From an uncultured Alphaproteobacteria bacterium (lineage in GTDB: Bacteria; Pseudomonadota; Alphaproteobacteria; RF32; CAG-239), in NCBI GenBank assembly GCA_947588655.1, contig CANPYS010000016.1:1-41005 (forward strand): a stretch of 41,005 nt of DNA, written 5' to 3'. This document shows positions 4,157 through 41,005 of this stretch, in pieces. Within the stretch, counting starts at the first letter, position 1, and the number at the start of each line of letters is the position of its first letter. Made by a program: the position numbers and the translations under genes. The notes beneath the pieces were generated by a model that worked only from the letters and a program-made list of their open reading frames with translations, did no database searches and was not told the DNA's origin.

Positions 4157-5173
4157 CTATTTTGAAAAAGCCTTCGCCATAGCGACAGCGGTATCAGACA
4201 TCTTGTTAGAGAAGCCCCATTCGTTGTCATACCATGAAACGATTCGGACAAACCGACCATGAATAACTTTAGTTTGACCGGCATCAAAAATAGAGGTGTG
4301 TGCGTCGCTGACAAAGTCTTGCGAAACAAGCGGCTCGTCATTATATTCCAAAATACCTTTGAGCTCGCCTTCAGAGGCTTGTTTCATCGCGGCGTTGATT
4401 TCTTCCGCCGTCACATCGCGACCGGCGTTAAACGTTAAGTCAACAAGCGAAACATCAGGAGTCGGCACACGCACCGCAGAACCTTCCAACTTGCCGTCTA
4501 AGGAAGGAAGCACCAAGCCAATAGCTTTGGCGGCACCCGTAGATGTCGGGATCATGTTCAAAGCGGCGGCGCGTCCACGATACGGATCTTTCGGGTGAAC
4601 AATATCTAATGTGCGTTGATCGCCTGTATAAGAGTGAATGGTTGTCATATAGCCGCGCTCAATGCCGCAAACTTTTTCCAAAACTTTGCACACAGGCGCT
4701 AAGCAGTTTGTGGTGCAAGACGCGTTTGAAACAACCCGATCCGATGCTGTTAAGGTGTCTTGGTTGACGCCGAAAACAATGGTTTTATCAGCGCCTTTGG
4801 CAGGTGCAGAAATCAAAACCTGCTTAGCGCCGGCTTCCAAGTGAACGGAAGCTTTTTCCTTGTCGGCAAAAATACCGGTGCATTCCATCACAACATCAAT
4901 GTTAAGCTCGCCCCATGGAAGATTTCTCGGATCTTTTTCAGCAAAGACCTTAATTTTGTGACCATTGACCGTGATAGAATTATCATCAGCCGTCACTTCG
5001 CCTTGAAAGCGACCGTGAACAGAGTCATATTTTAACAAACGGGCGTTATCAATCGGTTTGCCTAAATCGTTAATCGCGACCAATTCAATATCTGTGCGGC
5101 CAGATTCCACCATAGCGCGGTGTGTCAAGCGGCCGATTCGGCCATAACCGTTAATAGCAACACGAACTACCAT
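4157..5173 (-). CDS. gap: Glyceraldehyde-3-phosphate dehydrogenase, type I
   Basis: This enzyme oxidises glyceraldehyde-3-phosphate with NAD(P) and phosphate to 1,3-bisphosphoglycerate, the substrate of the next gene. The chosen ATG at 5173 has GGAAGGA upstream; an in-frame ATG 27 nt earlier lies before that site and is rejected. The 338-aa product has the Rossmann motif INGYGRIGR (7-15), the active-site SNASCTTNC with Cys153, His180 in TTIHSYTGDQ, NMIPTSTGAAKA, and WYDNEWGFSNKM near the C-terminus. Length and motifs are normal. It forms a gap-pgk unit, with a transcription stop signal just past its stop codon. Confidence 0.97.
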   Translation of the reverse strand: MVVRVAINGYGRIGRLTHRAMVESGRTDIELVAINDLGKPIDNARLLKYDSVHGRFQGEVTADDNSITVNGHKIKVFAEKDPRNLPWGELNIDVVMECTGIFADKEKASVHLEAGAKQVLISAPAKGADKTIVFGVNQDTLTASDRVVSNASCTTNCLAPVCKVLEKVCGIERGYMTTIHSYTGDQRTLDIVHPKDPYRGRAAALNMIPTSTGAAKAIGLVLPSLDGKLEGSAVRVPTPDVSLVDLTFNAGRDVTAEEINAAMKQASEGELKGILEYNDEPLVSQDFVSDAHTSIFDAGQTKVIHGRFVRIVSWYDNEWGFSNKMSDTAVAMAKAFSK

Positions 5174-15794: not shown

Positions 15795-16334
15795 ATGAAA
15801 AGATACCTGTCGCTGATTTGTTTGATACTGATAACGAGCAAAGCTTTTGCTGAAGAAATACCGGAGGAATTTCAAAACCCGATTTTTAATAACATTCTTT
15901 GGTCAGAAAATTATAATCTGACAAACCATATGCGCCTGACGCCAAAATATACTTATGATTTGGAAAATCCACGTGGTAATTATAAGACCACATATATAGC
16001 GGAATCAGATAAGGCCGTTTTGGTTAAATATTATGGAGAAGGTTTTGCAAAAGATAACGTCTCTTATGAGATGTATTTGATTCGTTATAAATATTATTTA
16101 CCATGGGAAAAAAGATTTAGATGTCTTGTTTGGCAATGCATCTTTGACATCAGAAACGGTGTATTTAATCCTAAATACGATATTTCCCAAAATATATACT
16201 CAAGCGACCTGCCTTGTCCTGATGAAGAAGAAAGATATACGGAAAATACGGAAGCGCCTAGGATAGATTGTCTGGAAGAACTCCGCCGCCTCGGTTGGGA
16301 TAAATACATCAAAGCTGAGGAAAAAAAGAAATGA
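15795..16334 (+). CDS. Exported putative immunity protein, copy 1
   Basis: A 179-aa product with a Sec signal peptide (1-19, cleavage likely after AFA), so periplasmic. Conserved mature features are PIFNNILW, NYNLTNHMRLTP, YDLENPRG, ESDKA, VWQC, NGVFNPKY and SSDLPCPDE. Four conserved cysteines (110, 115, 141, 159) would allow two disulfides. I do not recognise the family; it is not obviously MliC, PliI, PliG or Ivy. It has its own good ribosome site (AAGGAG, 15782-15787). Position behind a muramidase gene suggests a lysozyme inhibitor or immunity role (inference). Its stop overlaps the next start as ATGA. Confidence 0.7.
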   Translation: MKRYLSLICLILITSKAFAEEIPEEFQNPIFNNILWSENYNLTNHMRLTPKYTYDLENPRGNYKTTYIAESDKAVLVKYYGEGFAKDNVSYEMYLIRYKYYLPWEKRFRCLVWQCIFDIRNGVFNPKYDISQNIYSSDLPCPDEEERYTENTEAPRIDCLEELRRLGWDKYIKAEEKKK

Positions 16335-16870
16335 AAAGATACCTGTTGCTGATTTGTTTAATCTTGATAACAAGCAAAGTTTTTGCGGAAGAAGTTCCCG
16401 AGGAATTTAAAAACCCAATTTTTAATAACATTCTTTGGTCAGAAAATTACAATCTAACAAACCATATGCGCTTGACGCCAAGCTTTAGTTATGATTTAGA
16501 AAACCCACGTGGCGATCGTAAGTGCACATATGTGACGGAGTCAGACAAGGCAATCTTGCTTAAACATTATGGAAAAGGTTTTGCAAAAGATACCGTTGTA
16601 TATGAATTATATTTGAATCGTTATAAATATTTTTTACGTTGGGAAAAAAGATATAGATGTCTTGTTTGGCAATGTTTTTTTGACATCAGAAACGGTGTAT
16701 TTAATCCTAAATACGATATTTCCCAAAATATATACTCAAGCGACCTGCCTTGTCCTGATGAAGAAGAAAGATATACGGAAAATACGGAAGCGCCTAGGAT
16801 AGATTGTCTGGAAGAACTCCGCCGCCTCGGTTGGGATAAATACATCACTTCAGAGGAAAAAAAGAAATGA
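16331..16870 (+). CDS. Exported putative immunity protein, copy 2
   Basis: A 179-aa paralogue of copy 1, exactly 536 nt downstream and overlapping it by 4 nt (ATGA), so probably translated by coupling with GAGG at the end of copy 1. Its last third is almost identical to copy 1 (including EEERYTENTEAPRIDCLEE). Its middle (SFSYDLENPRGDRKCTYVTESDK) matches copy 4 instead. It has an extra cysteine in RKCTYV. Signal peptide ends VFA. The mosaic pattern points to exchange between copies. Confidence 0.7.
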   Translation: MKRYLLLICLILITSKVFAEEVPEEFKNPIFNNILWSENYNLTNHMRLTPSFSYDLENPRGDRKCTYVTESDKAILLKHYGKGFAKDTVVYELYLNRYKYFLRWEKRYRCLVWQCFFDIRNGVFNPKYDISQNIYSSDLPCPDEEERYTENTEAPRIDCLEELRRLGWDKYITSEEKKK

Positions 16871-17406
16871 AAAGATACCTGTTGCTGATTTGTTTGATAT
16901 TGATAACAAGCAAAGCTTTTGCTGAAGAAGTTCCGGAAAAATTTAAAAACCCGATTTTTAATAACATTCTTTGGTCAGAAAATTATAATCTGACAAACCA
17001 TATGCGCCTGACACCAAACTATACTTATGATTTAGAAAATCCGCGTGGCAATTATAAGACCACATATATAGCGGAATCAGATAAGGCTGTTTTGGTTAAA
17101 TATTATGGAGAAGGCTTTGCCAAAAATAACGTCTCATACGAGTTATATTTTATTCATGAAAAATATTATTTGTCACGGGAAAAAAGATATAGATGTAATG
17201 TTTGGCAATGCATCTTTGACATCAAAAACGGTGTATTTAATCCAAAATACGATATTTCCCAAAATATATACTCAAGCGACCTGCCTTGCCCCGATGAGAA
17301 AGTAGAGGATCTGAGCATTATAGGAAAACCCGATCCGGATTGCCTGGAAGAACTCCGTCGCCTCGGTTGGGATAAATACATCACTTCAGAGGAAAAAAAG
17401 AAATGA
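16867..17406 (+). CDS. Exported putative immunity protein, copy 3
   Basis: A 179-aa paralogue, again 536 nt further on with a 4-nt ATGA overlap. Its middle (YTYDLENPRGNYKTTYIAE) matches copy 1, while its FIHEKYYL segment matches copy 4. Residues 142-157 (DEKVEDLSIIGKPDPD) differ from copies 1 and 2, marking a variable region between the third and fourth conserved cysteines, possibly the surface that faces the enzyme. Confidence 0.7.
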   Translation: MKRYLLLICLILITSKAFAEEVPEKFKNPIFNNILWSENYNLTNHMRLTPNYTYDLENPRGNYKTTYIAESDKAVLVKYYGEGFAKNNVSYELYFIHEKYYLSREKRYRCNVWQCIFDIKNGVFNPKYDISQNIYSSDLPCPDEKVEDLSIIGKPDPDCLEELRRLGWDKYITSEEKKK

Positions 17407-17942
17407 AAAGATACCTGTCGCTGATTTGTTTGATCTTGATAACAAGCAAAGTTTTTGCGGAAGAAGCTCCGGAAGAATTTAAAAACCCAATTTTTAACAA
17501 CATTCTTTGGTCGGGTAACTACAATTTAACAAACCATATGCGCTTGACGCCAAGCTTTAGTTATGATTTAGAAAATCCGCGTGGCGATCATAAGTGCACA
17601 TATGTGACGGAATCAGATAAGGCGGTTTTAATTAAATATTATGGGGAAGGTTTTGCCAAAGATAACGTTACATACGAGTTATATTTTATTCATGAAAAAT
17701 ATTATTTACCATGGGAAAAAAGATATAGATGCATTGTTTGGCAATGCGTTTTTGATATTAAGAACGGTGTATTTAATCCAAAATACAATATTTCCGAATA
17801 TATATACTCAAGCGACCTGCCTTGCCCCGATGAAAAAGAAGAAGAGTATCTAGCATATTTAAAACCCGCCCCTGATTGTCTAGAAGAACTCCGCCGCCTC
17901 CGTTGGGATAAATACATCAAAGCTGAGGAAAAACGGTTATAA
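17403..17942 (+). CDS. Exported putative immunity protein, copy 4
   Basis: The last 179-aa paralogue, overlapping copy 3 by ATGA. It shares SFSYDLENPRGD and RKC-like HKCTYVTESDK with copy 2 and FIHEKYYL with copy 3. The variable region reads DEKEEEYLAYLKPAPD, and it ends EEKRL rather than EEKKK. It is the most divergent copy in the tail (NISEYIYSS, LRWDKY). It ends 14 nt before the convergent pyruvyl transferase gene; no clear terminator was seen. Confidence 0.7.
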   Translation: MKRYLSLICLILITSKVFAEEAPEEFKNPIFNNILWSGNYNLTNHMRLTPSFSYDLENPRGDHKCTYVTESDKAVLIKYYGEGFAKDNVTYELYFIHEKYYLPWEKRYRCIVWQCVFDIKNGVFNPKYNISEYIYSSDLPCPDEKEEEYLAYLKPAPDCLEELRRLRWDKYIKAEEKRL

Positions 17943-17956
17943 ATTTTCCGTGAAAA

Positions 17957-19106
17957 TCAGCGACGTTTGCCCTTTTGTTTTTTATAACGGATATGTATAA
18001 AGCCAAATAAAACGATATGTCGTTTAAAACCGCTTTTATATTTCTTAAAAAAATGAAATCTCGGTAATGTCAATGGTGTATCCGGACGTGATAAATTGGC
18101 GCCTTTGTGTTCACATTCTTTAAAATGCACACTTTTACTGTGCGTAAACGCAAGACAGAGTTTTTTAAGATGCTTGGCATATTTTTTATAAGCTTCGCTG
18201 TTGATGACAAGACCTTGCGCATCTTTTAAAACCCTTATTTCAAATTTCCCTTGTTCGTTTTCTCCGATGCAGTTAAGCAAAGAAACAATGCCACGAAATC
18301 TTTTGTAATCAAAAGAAGGTGCAATCAAAATCACAGGTGTCCCTAGTGCCAAGCAGGGTAGGGCGCAGTGAATATTTTGTGTAATGACCAGCTTGGCGCG
18401 GGCATAATCTTTAATCAGTCGCTCTGCCTCGCGCAGACTTCCTTCGGGATCTGTATTGAGCGGATAGTGATGACTGCGATATAAAAGTTGACAATCAGGA
18501 TATTTTTTCAAAATTTTTTTAACCGCGCCGTCAATTTTATAATTTTTCCCTAAAGCGTAGTCTACAAAAAATATATTATTATGACGTTCACTCTCCTTGA
18601 CGCGGTACGTCTCGCCCAAAGTCAAAGTTAGACAACCGGAAAAATAAGCCTCAATATGGTGTTTTTTCAAAAAATCGCGCGTTTGATAATCGCGACACCC
18701 GATAGGTTCGTGTTTTTTGAGATAATCTAAAGTTTTTTGTGTTACATTTTGCAAATTATTGATATGAAAAGACACAAACAAAGGATGAAAACGCTCTGAA
18801 AAAGCCTGATTACCACGCCATAAAAAATACCATGCGTTCATAATCAGATTTATTTGATTTCCCTGGTAAAATGAAAGCCTATCTCGGTCAATATAAACAT
18901 CTATTTGATTAAAAAACTGCCTTGCCGCTAAAGATTGAATATAGTCGCCAATATTCATATACGGCGGATTATAATAGCCCTTTTCTGATTGAGCATTGTT
19001 ATAGGTATAAATAAGCAGGCCGTTTTTCTTGAATGGGGGGGGGTAGAGAAGATTGTGCCTGCGTCAGCATTTGCAAATGTTTCAAGGCAAGTTGTTTATC
19101 AGTCAT
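17957..19106 (-). CDS. Polysaccharide pyruvyl transferase family protein, OFF phase (frame broken at C9 tract)
   Basis: Proteins of this family (CsaB/WcaK-like) add ketal pyruvate to surface glycans or act as related glycan-modifying enzymes. The natural start is ATG at 19106 with AAGGAT upstream. In this sequence a run of nine C (19035-19043, minus-strand reading) shifts the frame and stops translation after 35 codons. With eight C the frame reads on as LLIYTYNNAQ...NPPYMNIGDYIQSLAARQF, an expected family N-terminus, giving 382 aa. The downstream frame is intact, starting at an internal ATG (18958), and has the family motif GCRDYQTRDFL...SGCLTLTL and the LVITQNIHCALPCLALGTPVI region. A basic C-terminal tail suggests membrane association. 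The gene is probably phase-variable. Confidence 0.72.
19035..19043. repeat. Poly-G/C tract (9 nt), contingency site
   Basis: Nine G on the plus strand (C on the coding strand) at codon 22-24 of the pyruvyl transferase gene. Such tracts slip during replication and switch genes on and off. Eight C would restore the full frame. Confidence 0.75.
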
Positions 19107-19129
19107 AAAATATCCTTTATCAAACAAGT

Positions 19130-20209
19130 TTAAAATTCGCCAACATACATACCCAAGTCTTTAGCCGCCTTGAGGTATGGACTATCTGAATTTAAAAGCT
19201 TTGTCCCTGATGCCACAACATCGTCTAACGGATACGATTCTAAACGTCCATTAGAAAGACCGACCATCAGATTTGTATGCCCATTTGCCAAAAGCTCCAC
19301 GGCTTTGGCGCCGAAAAGCGAAGCCAAAATGCGATCAAACGCCGTTGGCGTGCCAGAGCGTTGAACATGTCCCAAACGCGTCACGCGGGTTTGAAAACCA
19401 TTGTATTGAGCGTTAAGCGCATGGCTGAGCCACTCACCGATACCGCCGTGGATGCTCTCGCCGACCAAATTTTTAGCCGCCGAAACCGATTCGCCGCTTT
19501 CAGTCTTCACACCCTCTGAAACCACAATCACAGCATGTGTGCGCCCTGATTTTTTAATGGATTCCAGCTTTTGGATAATGCCGTCTAAAGTATAAGGAAT
19601 CTCAGGCACCAAGCACACATCGGCAAAACCAGCCAAAGCCGCCTGAATAGCCAAATGCCCCGCATCGCGTCCCATAACTTCCAAAATCAACGCCCGATGA
19701 TGTGAACGCGCAGTTGTTTCCAAGCTATCAAGGGCTTCCATACAAACCTGACAAGCCGTATCAAACCCAACGGAATATTGCGTTAAAGGGGTGTCGTTAT
19801 CAATGGTTTTTGGAATACCAATCATCTTCACGCCGGCACTTTTGCAATAGCCGCTTACAATATTCATACTACCATCGCCGCCGACAACCACCACGGCGTC
19901 AAGGCCAAGCTCTTTCACGCCTTGCCCAAAGCGCGCCGACATTTCAGATTGCGAATCAAGCTTAACCCCCTTATTCAAAGAACCTAAATACGAACCAGCG
20001 ATTCGCGGCCAAGGTGTTTCGGAAAAGTTTTGCAAAGTCAAAACCTCGTATGAAAGGGGGCGCTCCGTTAGCCCGTCCGTGCCGTCGTGAATACCATAGA
20101 CCGTCCATCCCCGAAGGGTCGCGGCATTAAGCACAGCATAAATGACGGCGTTAAGGCCGGCACAATCGCCGCCGCTTGTTAAAATCCCTATTTTCTTAAT
20201 CCCGTTCAT
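19130..20209 (-). CDS. pfkA: 6-phosphofructokinase (PfkA family)
   Basis: Phosphorylates fructose-6-phosphate to the 1,6-bisphosphate, the committing step of glycolysis. The 359-aa product shows TSGGDCAGLN (11-20), VVGGDGSM (108-115), IPKTIDNDT (132-140) with the catalytic Asp, EVMGRDAGHLA, and RLGHVQRSG near the C-terminus. GGDG, rather than GGDD, suggests ATP as donor. PKTIDND, rather than PGTIDND, is more common in pyrophosphate-type and group III enzymes, so donor use is not certain from sequence. GGAG precedes the ATG by nine bases. It is monocistronic and divergent from the next gene. Confidence 0.93.
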   Translation of the reverse strand: MNGIKKIGILTSGGDCAGLNAVIYAVLNAATLRGWTVYGIHDGTDGLTERPLSYEVLTLQNFSETPWPRIAGSYLGSLNKGVKLDSQSEMSARFGQGVKELGLDAVVVVGGDGSMNIVSGYCKSAGVKMIGIPKTIDNDTPLTQYSVGFDTACQVCMEALDSLETTARSHHRALILEVMGRDAGHLAIQAALAGFADVCLVPEIPYTLDGIIQKLESIKKSGRTHAVIVVSEGVKTESGESVSAAKNLVGESIHGGIGEWLSHALNAQYNGFQTRVTRLGHVQRSGTPTAFDRILASLFGAKAVELLANGHTNLMVGLSNGRLESYPLDDVVASGTKLLNSDSPYLKAAKDLGMYVGEF

Positions 20210-24782: not shown

Positions 24783-25739
24783 TTACTTTAATTTTTGACG
24801 AAGTTCTTTCCTTTTGCGAGAAGAGGGAACAAAGTTGATAAAAAACTTTTTGAGTTTATACGAAAACCTCTTTTTTCTAAAATTTTCCATAAAAGGGACA
24901 ATCGTTTCTTTCTCTAAAGATAAGAAAATGCATTTATTAAAGTAGTCTTTCAAATCAAGAGCTATCAAGGGATTGATAAAATAGCCTTCATTTTTTGATA
25001 AGATGCGAGCAAAGCGTCCAAAACTTCCTTTGCTTGCAATAAAATGTTGGCATTTAGTCATCAGGTACAAATCCAAATAACCTTTGTCTGAGCCGTTTTG
25101 TTCACAGATTTTATACGCCAGATTTTGCGGTAATTGAGGAATTAAAAAATCATTGACCCAAGACATTTCATCTGAAAAGAAATAAAATTTCACCTTTGGA
25201 ACAAGGGCGTTTATAATTTTTATGGCACTAATAAAATATTCTTCCGAACAGGGGCGCCCATAGCCAGTGTCTGTGTGCATAGCCAAGTCGCCACGACGAA
25301 CATGCACAGCGCAGGAGCAATGTGCGCATATATCGTCTAAAGTTGTTTGAATTGCCTTCAAATCAGATTGGGGGGGGGTAAAGCGTTCGGCAAAAGTTGT
25401 TCTGTTCTCAAGCAGATATTTCATGCCGCTTGGATAACCGTCCAAATAAAGAGGAGATTTCATTTTAAATATATTATTCGTTTTTTTAGGATATTTTTTA
25501 GAATAATACTTAATTTCATCGTGTGTTGCTTCTTCAAATGGAAGTGAAGGAAAGGCTTTCAATAAATCAAAATTTCTGGCAAAGCGTCCGTCCATATCTA
25601 AGCCGTCGGTTTCAAACCAAGTTAAATCAAATTTAACATGGTAATTTTGGCTCATAAAATATGCGCCAATCGCATAAAAATTTATTTGAGAAGATATGCC
25701 GCCGTCAACGCGAACAATAATCAAATCATCTTTTTTCAT
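24783..25739 (-). CDS. Alpha-1,2-fucosyltransferase family protein (GT11), phase-variable
   Basis: GT11 enzymes transfer L-fucose from GDP-fucose onto galactose-containing glycans. The second of two adjacent ATGs (25739) is better placed after CGGAG. The 318-aa product has VRVDGGISSQINFYAIGAYF near the N-terminus, the GDP-fucose motif VHVRRGD in the middle, FYFFSDEMSWV, and a strongly basic C-terminus (SSRKRKELRQKLK) suited to membrane contact. A run of nine C (25370-25378) encodes Thr-Pro-Pro and keeps the frame, so this copy is ON; loss or gain of one base would truncate the protein before HxRRGD. It has its own promoter. Confidence 0.82.
   Translation of the reverse strand: MKKDDLIIVRVDGGISSQINFYAIGAYFMSQNYHVKFDLTWFETDGLDMDGRFARNFDLLKAFPSLPFEEATHDEIKYYSKKYPKKTNNIFKMKSPLYLDGYPSGMKYLLENRTTFAERFTPPQSDLKAIQTTLDDICAHCSCAVHVRRGDLAMHTDTGYGRPCSEEYFISAIKIINALVPKVKFYFFSDEMSWVNDFLIPQLPQNLAYKICEQNGSDKGYLDLYLMTKCQHFIASKGSFGRFARILSKNEGYFINPLIALDLKDYFNKCIFLSLEKETIVPFMENFRKKRFSYKLKKFFINFVPSSRKRKELRQKLK
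25370..25378. repeat. Poly-G/C tract (9 nt) in the fucosyltransferase gene
   Basis: Nine consecutive G on the plus strand within codons for RFTPPQ. It has the same length and kind as the tract that breaks the pyruvyl transferase gene, but here the frame is open. Confidence 0.75.
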
Positions 25740-25767
25740 CATAAGCTCCGAATAAAATACTTCAAAA

Positions 25768-40982: not shown

Positions 40983-41005
40983 TTGACAAAAAAATACGGG
41001 GGGGG
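40983..41005 (+). promoter_or_regulatory. Possible promoter with poly-G tract in the spacer (window edge)
   Basis: TTGACA (40983-40988) is followed by AAAAAAATAC and at least eight G (40998-41005) running off the window. If a -10 follows, the G-tract lies in the -35/-10 spacer, where slippage would change promoter strength. Confidence 0.4.

Follow-up and report, generated by a model that had tools for sequence, protein, structure and literature searches.

A C9 tract in a pyruvyl-transferase gene and a genome-wide set of poly-G/C tracts in an uncultured alphaproteobacterium

The window analysed here, a stretch of 41,005 nucleotides, is contig C16 of a 55-contig, 1.55-Mb assembly of an uncultured Alphaproteobacteria bacterium. 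It contains a pyruvyl-transferase gene in which a C9 tract lies between the start codon and the enzyme domain (Table 1). On the forward strand, the run is flanked as TTGAAT-G9-TAGAGA. The first-pass annotation had stated that this run breaks the frame 35 codons after the ATG at 19106, which the position of the stop codon bears out exactly. Translation from this ATG gives MTDKQLALKHLQMLTQAQSSLPPP, after which it continues out of frame until the stop. The tract occupies codons 22-24 in the frame of ATG 19106, so that a G/C tract of at least 8 lies inside the translated region. Two frames, each otherwise open, meet at the tract, and a full-length product depends on tract length.

The motif AAAGGA is located 6 nt upstream of ATG 19106. 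Of the possible starts, this ATG had been described as the only one to have a good ribosome site, which is fair, as the rival in-frame ATG at 18958 has no well-placed site before it. Further, a start at 18958 would delete the first beta strand (13-18) and Tyr19 (numbered in the window frame), a residue conserved without exception in 19 sequences. Thus, starting internally would probably not restore the enzyme. A phosphofructokinase gene (19130-20209; PF00365) ends 23 bases before ATG 19106, and this short gap suggests that the two genes probably share a single transcript. Adjoining the pyruvyl-transferase gene are four paralogues of 179 aa in tandem (15795-17942, forward strand), whose N-termini resemble signal peptides; no Pfam match was found for the last of them, the only copy scanned.

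Table 1. Positions of the tracts, frames and associated features in the window
Feature	Position	Strand	Remark
C9 tract on the coding strand (G9 on the forward strand)	19035-19043	-	Between start codon and pyruvyl-transferase domain; read directly
Ribosome-binding site AAAGGA	19113-19118	-	Read directly
OFF-frame product from ATG 19106	18999-19106	-	35 codons; stop at 18999-19001
Open frame with PF04230 domain	17957-19063	-	At C9, not in the frame of ATG 19106
Internal ATG in frame with the PF04230 domain (residue 36)	18956-18958	-	Start unlikely
Second internal tract, C9 on the coding strand	25370-25378	-	Located in the GT11 gene; frame kept (ON)
Glycosyltransferase family 11 gene (PF01531)	24783-25742	-	Contains the tract at 25370
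Terminal G run of the contig	40998-41005	+	Possibly another tract that stopped assembly, or a poly-G read artefact

The frame downstream of the tract comprises 368 codons and carries no lesion besides the tract, with no other stop or frame change. It matched the polysaccharide pyruvyl transferase profile PF04230 over the whole domain (profile 1-278 of 280; 66 bits compared with a cut-off of 25.3; E = 7e-18), and the conserved invariant residues are kept. A structure model had a mean pLDDT of 90.4, with strand 13-18 predicted at high confidence. The protein resembles known PF04230 pyruvyl transferases (Pvg1p, CsaB) in its profile match, and the best PDB match of the model was the yeast pyruvyltransferase Pvg1p (5ax7; E = 1e-4, probability 1.00); however, the TM-score was only 0.41-0.45 and the identity 15%. 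No solved structure matching the protein by sequence was found. Judged by its family, pyruvylation of a surface glycan is the function that we assign to the product with moderate confidence.

Homologues were searched in the GTDB genome collection, that is, among species other than the window's own. The closest homologues (L070-L073) were 50-58% identical and their frames were unbroken. Before the canonical start, the nearest homologues carry an N-terminal extension (MIDKIAIEHLNKIS..., MDEKLMLKHLELVS...) that resembles that of the window (MTDKQLALKHLQMLT...), and the extensions of L070 and L072 (MIDKIAIEHLNKISKEKLLRKNGLICYTYN; MDEKLMLKHLELVSNTSVEAKSAILTYSYN) are like the sequence upstream of the tract. 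None of the four contained a G/C run of at least 7 in this region. Many other homologues start directly at MKYGLLTY...N(I/V)GD.IQSLAAKQFLP, and the shared motif GLL.Y...N(I/V)GD.IQSLAA.QF agrees with the earlier statement that the downstream frame has a canonical N-terminus. Homologues without the tract were checked for the same broken frame, a case that the first-pass annotation had raised against its own reading, and the frame is intact in them. The unbroken homologues with a similar N-terminal extension indicate that the halves upstream and downstream of the tract are one gene, which is OFF in the assembled consensus. A homologue from Gastranaerophilales (L077) possesses a G13 run of its own near the 3' end of the gene (near 5008).

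In the whole genome, we counted 58 G/C runs of at least 8, which represent 56 distinct sites because two sites were assembled twice, and only two runs of exactly 7. Within 316 kb of sequence surrounding the tracts, G/C runs of length 4 to 12 numbered 622, 68, 5, 0, 7, 32, 16, 2 and 1, respectively; these 316 kb were picked for runs of at least 8, a choice that does not affect the zero at length 7, and the whole-genome counts agree. The G/C length spectrum is thus bimodal, with a gap at 7 and a peak at 9-10, and A/T runs in the same 316 kb fall off steadily without a second peak. Lengths 9 and 10 account for 55% and 28% of the 58 runs, respectively. Under a Markov-1 model of the window, 1.7 runs of at least 9 are expected per genome, compared with 51 observed. 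The same model expects 0.05 such runs per 41 kb, whereas the window has two internal ones, in accord with the earlier remark that long C-runs in such AT-rich DNA are rare unless kept. Among 153 genomes of the order, the 51 runs of at least 9 found here were followed by 14 and 11 in the next two genomes, 14 being the maximum among the 152 others, and 70 genomes had none. We considered loss of mutS as a cause of the excess and rejected it, because mutS is intact in this genome, as it is in nearly all relatives. With mutS intact, slippage may remain moderate.

The only two internal runs of the window are located in its two surface-sugar enzymes, the PF04230 gene, in which the frame is broken, and the GT11 gene, in which it is not. 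Both PF04230 genes of the genome hold tracts, and the other one is likewise broken, at a G9. Pfam assigned further tract genes to glycosyltransferases (families 2, 4, 6, 10, 11 and WbsX), acyl- and acetyltransferases, a DegT aminotransferase, sugar epimerases, SAM methyltransferases and a choline kinase-like gene, as well as to an Opa/OmpA-like outer-membrane barrel and a large adhesin-like protein with a BigA domain. In two cases the domain itself is split at the tract, namely Acyl_transf_3 (profile 2-201 and 206-320) and N6_N4_Mtase (profile 1-50 and 44-220). Three genes of DNA methyltransferase families hold tracts (C3:23682, C3:30513 and C34:6257; L038, L039 and L055) and are candidate phasevarions in an uncultured bacterium. 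The choline kinase/APH-like gene at C15:10367 (L048) has an in-frame G9 tract and recalls lic1A phosphocholine switching in Haemophilus.

On contig C4 (33301-64601; L034-L036), a single glycan/lipid cluster holds 18 tracts within about 31 kb. The cluster encodes a GDP-mannose dehydratase, DegT, LuxC/LuxE/AMP-ligase, two KAS III, a transketolase, short-chain dehydrogenases, an IspD-like protein and AlgX/MBOAT, and it may make an N-acylated perosamine-type sugar. A search with this cluster against the sister genome, run without a positive control, gave no match. By longest-frame models, which are mechanical and rough for tracts close to gene ends, 51 runs lie in coding frames; 21 of these have both sides in one frame and 30 are broken. 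The in-frame share does not differ significantly from the one third expected if length is free (p = 0.24).

Six tracts are found no more than 80 bases from the end of a contig, compared with 0.33 expected (P about 1e-6), and two pairs of them are the same sites assembled twice. An overlap of 115 bases at the end of contig C22 with 113 bases at the start of C1 is identical apart from G12 in the former and G10 in the latter. Similarly, the reversed start of C36 and the start of C18 share 103 and 102 bases, identical apart from C10 and C9, respectively. Two sites at two lengths suggest length alleles in the sample; the simplest explanation is that the DNA contained runs of different lengths, at which the assembly broke. 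Strain mixture or PCR stutter could also produce such differences. No partner contig was found for the G run that ends the window.

In the other genome of the genus that was compared, that of a sister species (G030; 93% complete), there were 15 G/C runs of at least 8. Orthologues in G030 again have tracts: an AlgX-like gene has C10 here and C11 in two copies in G030; the AlgX-like gene beside a DNA topoisomerase gene has G10 here and a nearby G9 in G030; and a gene on C30 has G9 in both. The pyruvyl-transferase gene was not found in G030, in which phosphofructokinase directly adjoins the glycogen synthase-like gene (L193); in the window, the two are separated by a block of about 4.7 kb that includes the pyruvyl-transferase gene.

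We regard the C9 run as highly likely to be a simple-sequence contingency locus. The first-pass annotation had proposed this reading, and it is supported by the bimodal G/C runs in surface-glycan and methyltransferase genes across the genome and by two other tracts of this genome that were each assembled at two lengths. Slipped-strand mispairing at replication would alter the length of the run. In one third of the length classes, the start at 19106 would join the pyruvyl-transferase frame (ON), and in the other two translation would break off early, some dozens of codons in (OFF), which is the state of the assembled consensus. Active slippage at the tract and an effect on glycan pyruvylation are predictions from the sequence. 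Because about 56 slippery runs far exceed those in any of the 152 other genomes searched in the order, single genes for the cell surface are probably turned on and off one by one, and the tracts would act independently on surface glycan decoration, the outer-membrane barrel, the adhesin-like protein and the DNA methyltransferases.

A dead gene, in which the run expanded once and no longer switches, would also have a broken consensus and would fit an accessory gene that is absent from the sister species. We regard this as improbable, as 368 codons have been kept without another stop or frame change, together with the invariant residues, and the 21 of 51 coding tracts in frame are about what free switching predicts. 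An error of base calling or assembly, with a true run of one in-frame length and a gene that is intact and constant, is slightly less probable still. Homopolymer length is the commonest small error; however, such errors would neither yield 58 long runs while leaving length 7 almost empty nor cluster the long runs in glycan genes, and separately sequenced relatives have tracts in orthologues. Further, even if one base at this site were wrong, the tract itself could still be read as a contingency locus. Expression despite C9, by initiation at 18958 or by slippage of RNA polymerase or the ribosome on the run, is the least probable of the three, because the available in-frame ATG lacks the site and the N-terminal residues described above and because transcript slippage, which can arise at long homopolymers, would give only a small leak and leaves 56 tracts unexplained.

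The contingency reading places the locus beside known systems, and the slipped-strand mechanism itself is already known. The poly-G/C phasome of Campylobacter is alike in having mononucleotide G/C tracts in surface-glycan genes, tens of them per genome, with a peak at 9 and then 10 (PMC6321876). In that genus, as listed with PhasomeIt, lengths 9 and 10 make up 53% and 26% at a cut-off of 7, compared with the 55% and 28% obtained here from runs of at least 8 (PMC6321876). In contrast, the lineages are unrelated, and C tracts on the coding strand account for 12 of 51 here but for 5% there (PMC6321876). Further differences are the presence of mutS and the packing of the C4 cluster in the present genome. 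To our knowledge, Campylobacter lacks mutS.

The contingency loci of Neisseria and Haemophilus (glycosyltransferases, lic1A and phasevarions) likewise involve repeat-driven translational on/off switching in glycan, choline-kinase and DNA-methyltransferase genes; however, tetranucleotide and longer repeats also occur there, and our comparison covers G/C homopolymers only. Among alphaproteobacteria, Bartonella has mononucleotide SSR contingency loci in surface-related genes, but other genes dominate there (the trimeric adhesin badE, with A9 and G9 tracts), and we found no comparable glycan-centred G/C set reported (PMC11466379). The phase-variable capsule of Akkermansia, also a gut commensal, includes a pyruvyl transferase in its locus, but the switch is an invertible element that controls the locus rather than a homopolymer in a single gene (PMC13343947).

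We think it likely that a poly-G/C phasome on the scale of that of Campylobacter has arisen independently in an uncultured lineage, to judge from gene content and related records probably an alphaproteobacterium of the gut, with mutS intact and an almost identical length distribution, comprising about 56 tracts, including the 18 of the C4 glycan/lipid cluster and those in three DNA methyltransferases. In literature outside subscription journals, we found nothing relevant on poly-G phase variation in uncultured alphaproteobacteria; the lineage and the density are new in the searchable literature. Homopolymer phase variation is known mainly from cultured pathogens, and the unexpected part is its genome-wide scale in an uncultured alphaproteobacterial lineage. 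A dense, glycan-centred set that is missing in nearly all relatives offers a natural contrast on what selects such systems, and metagenome reads would allow switching to be measured in the host, free of culture. Further, annotation of metagenome-assembled genomes will score many tract genes as broken or missing, and tracts also split assemblies.

A moderate excess was also observed in another genus of the same family, in which one genome (G062) has 14 G/C runs of at least 9, possibly through an independent expansion.
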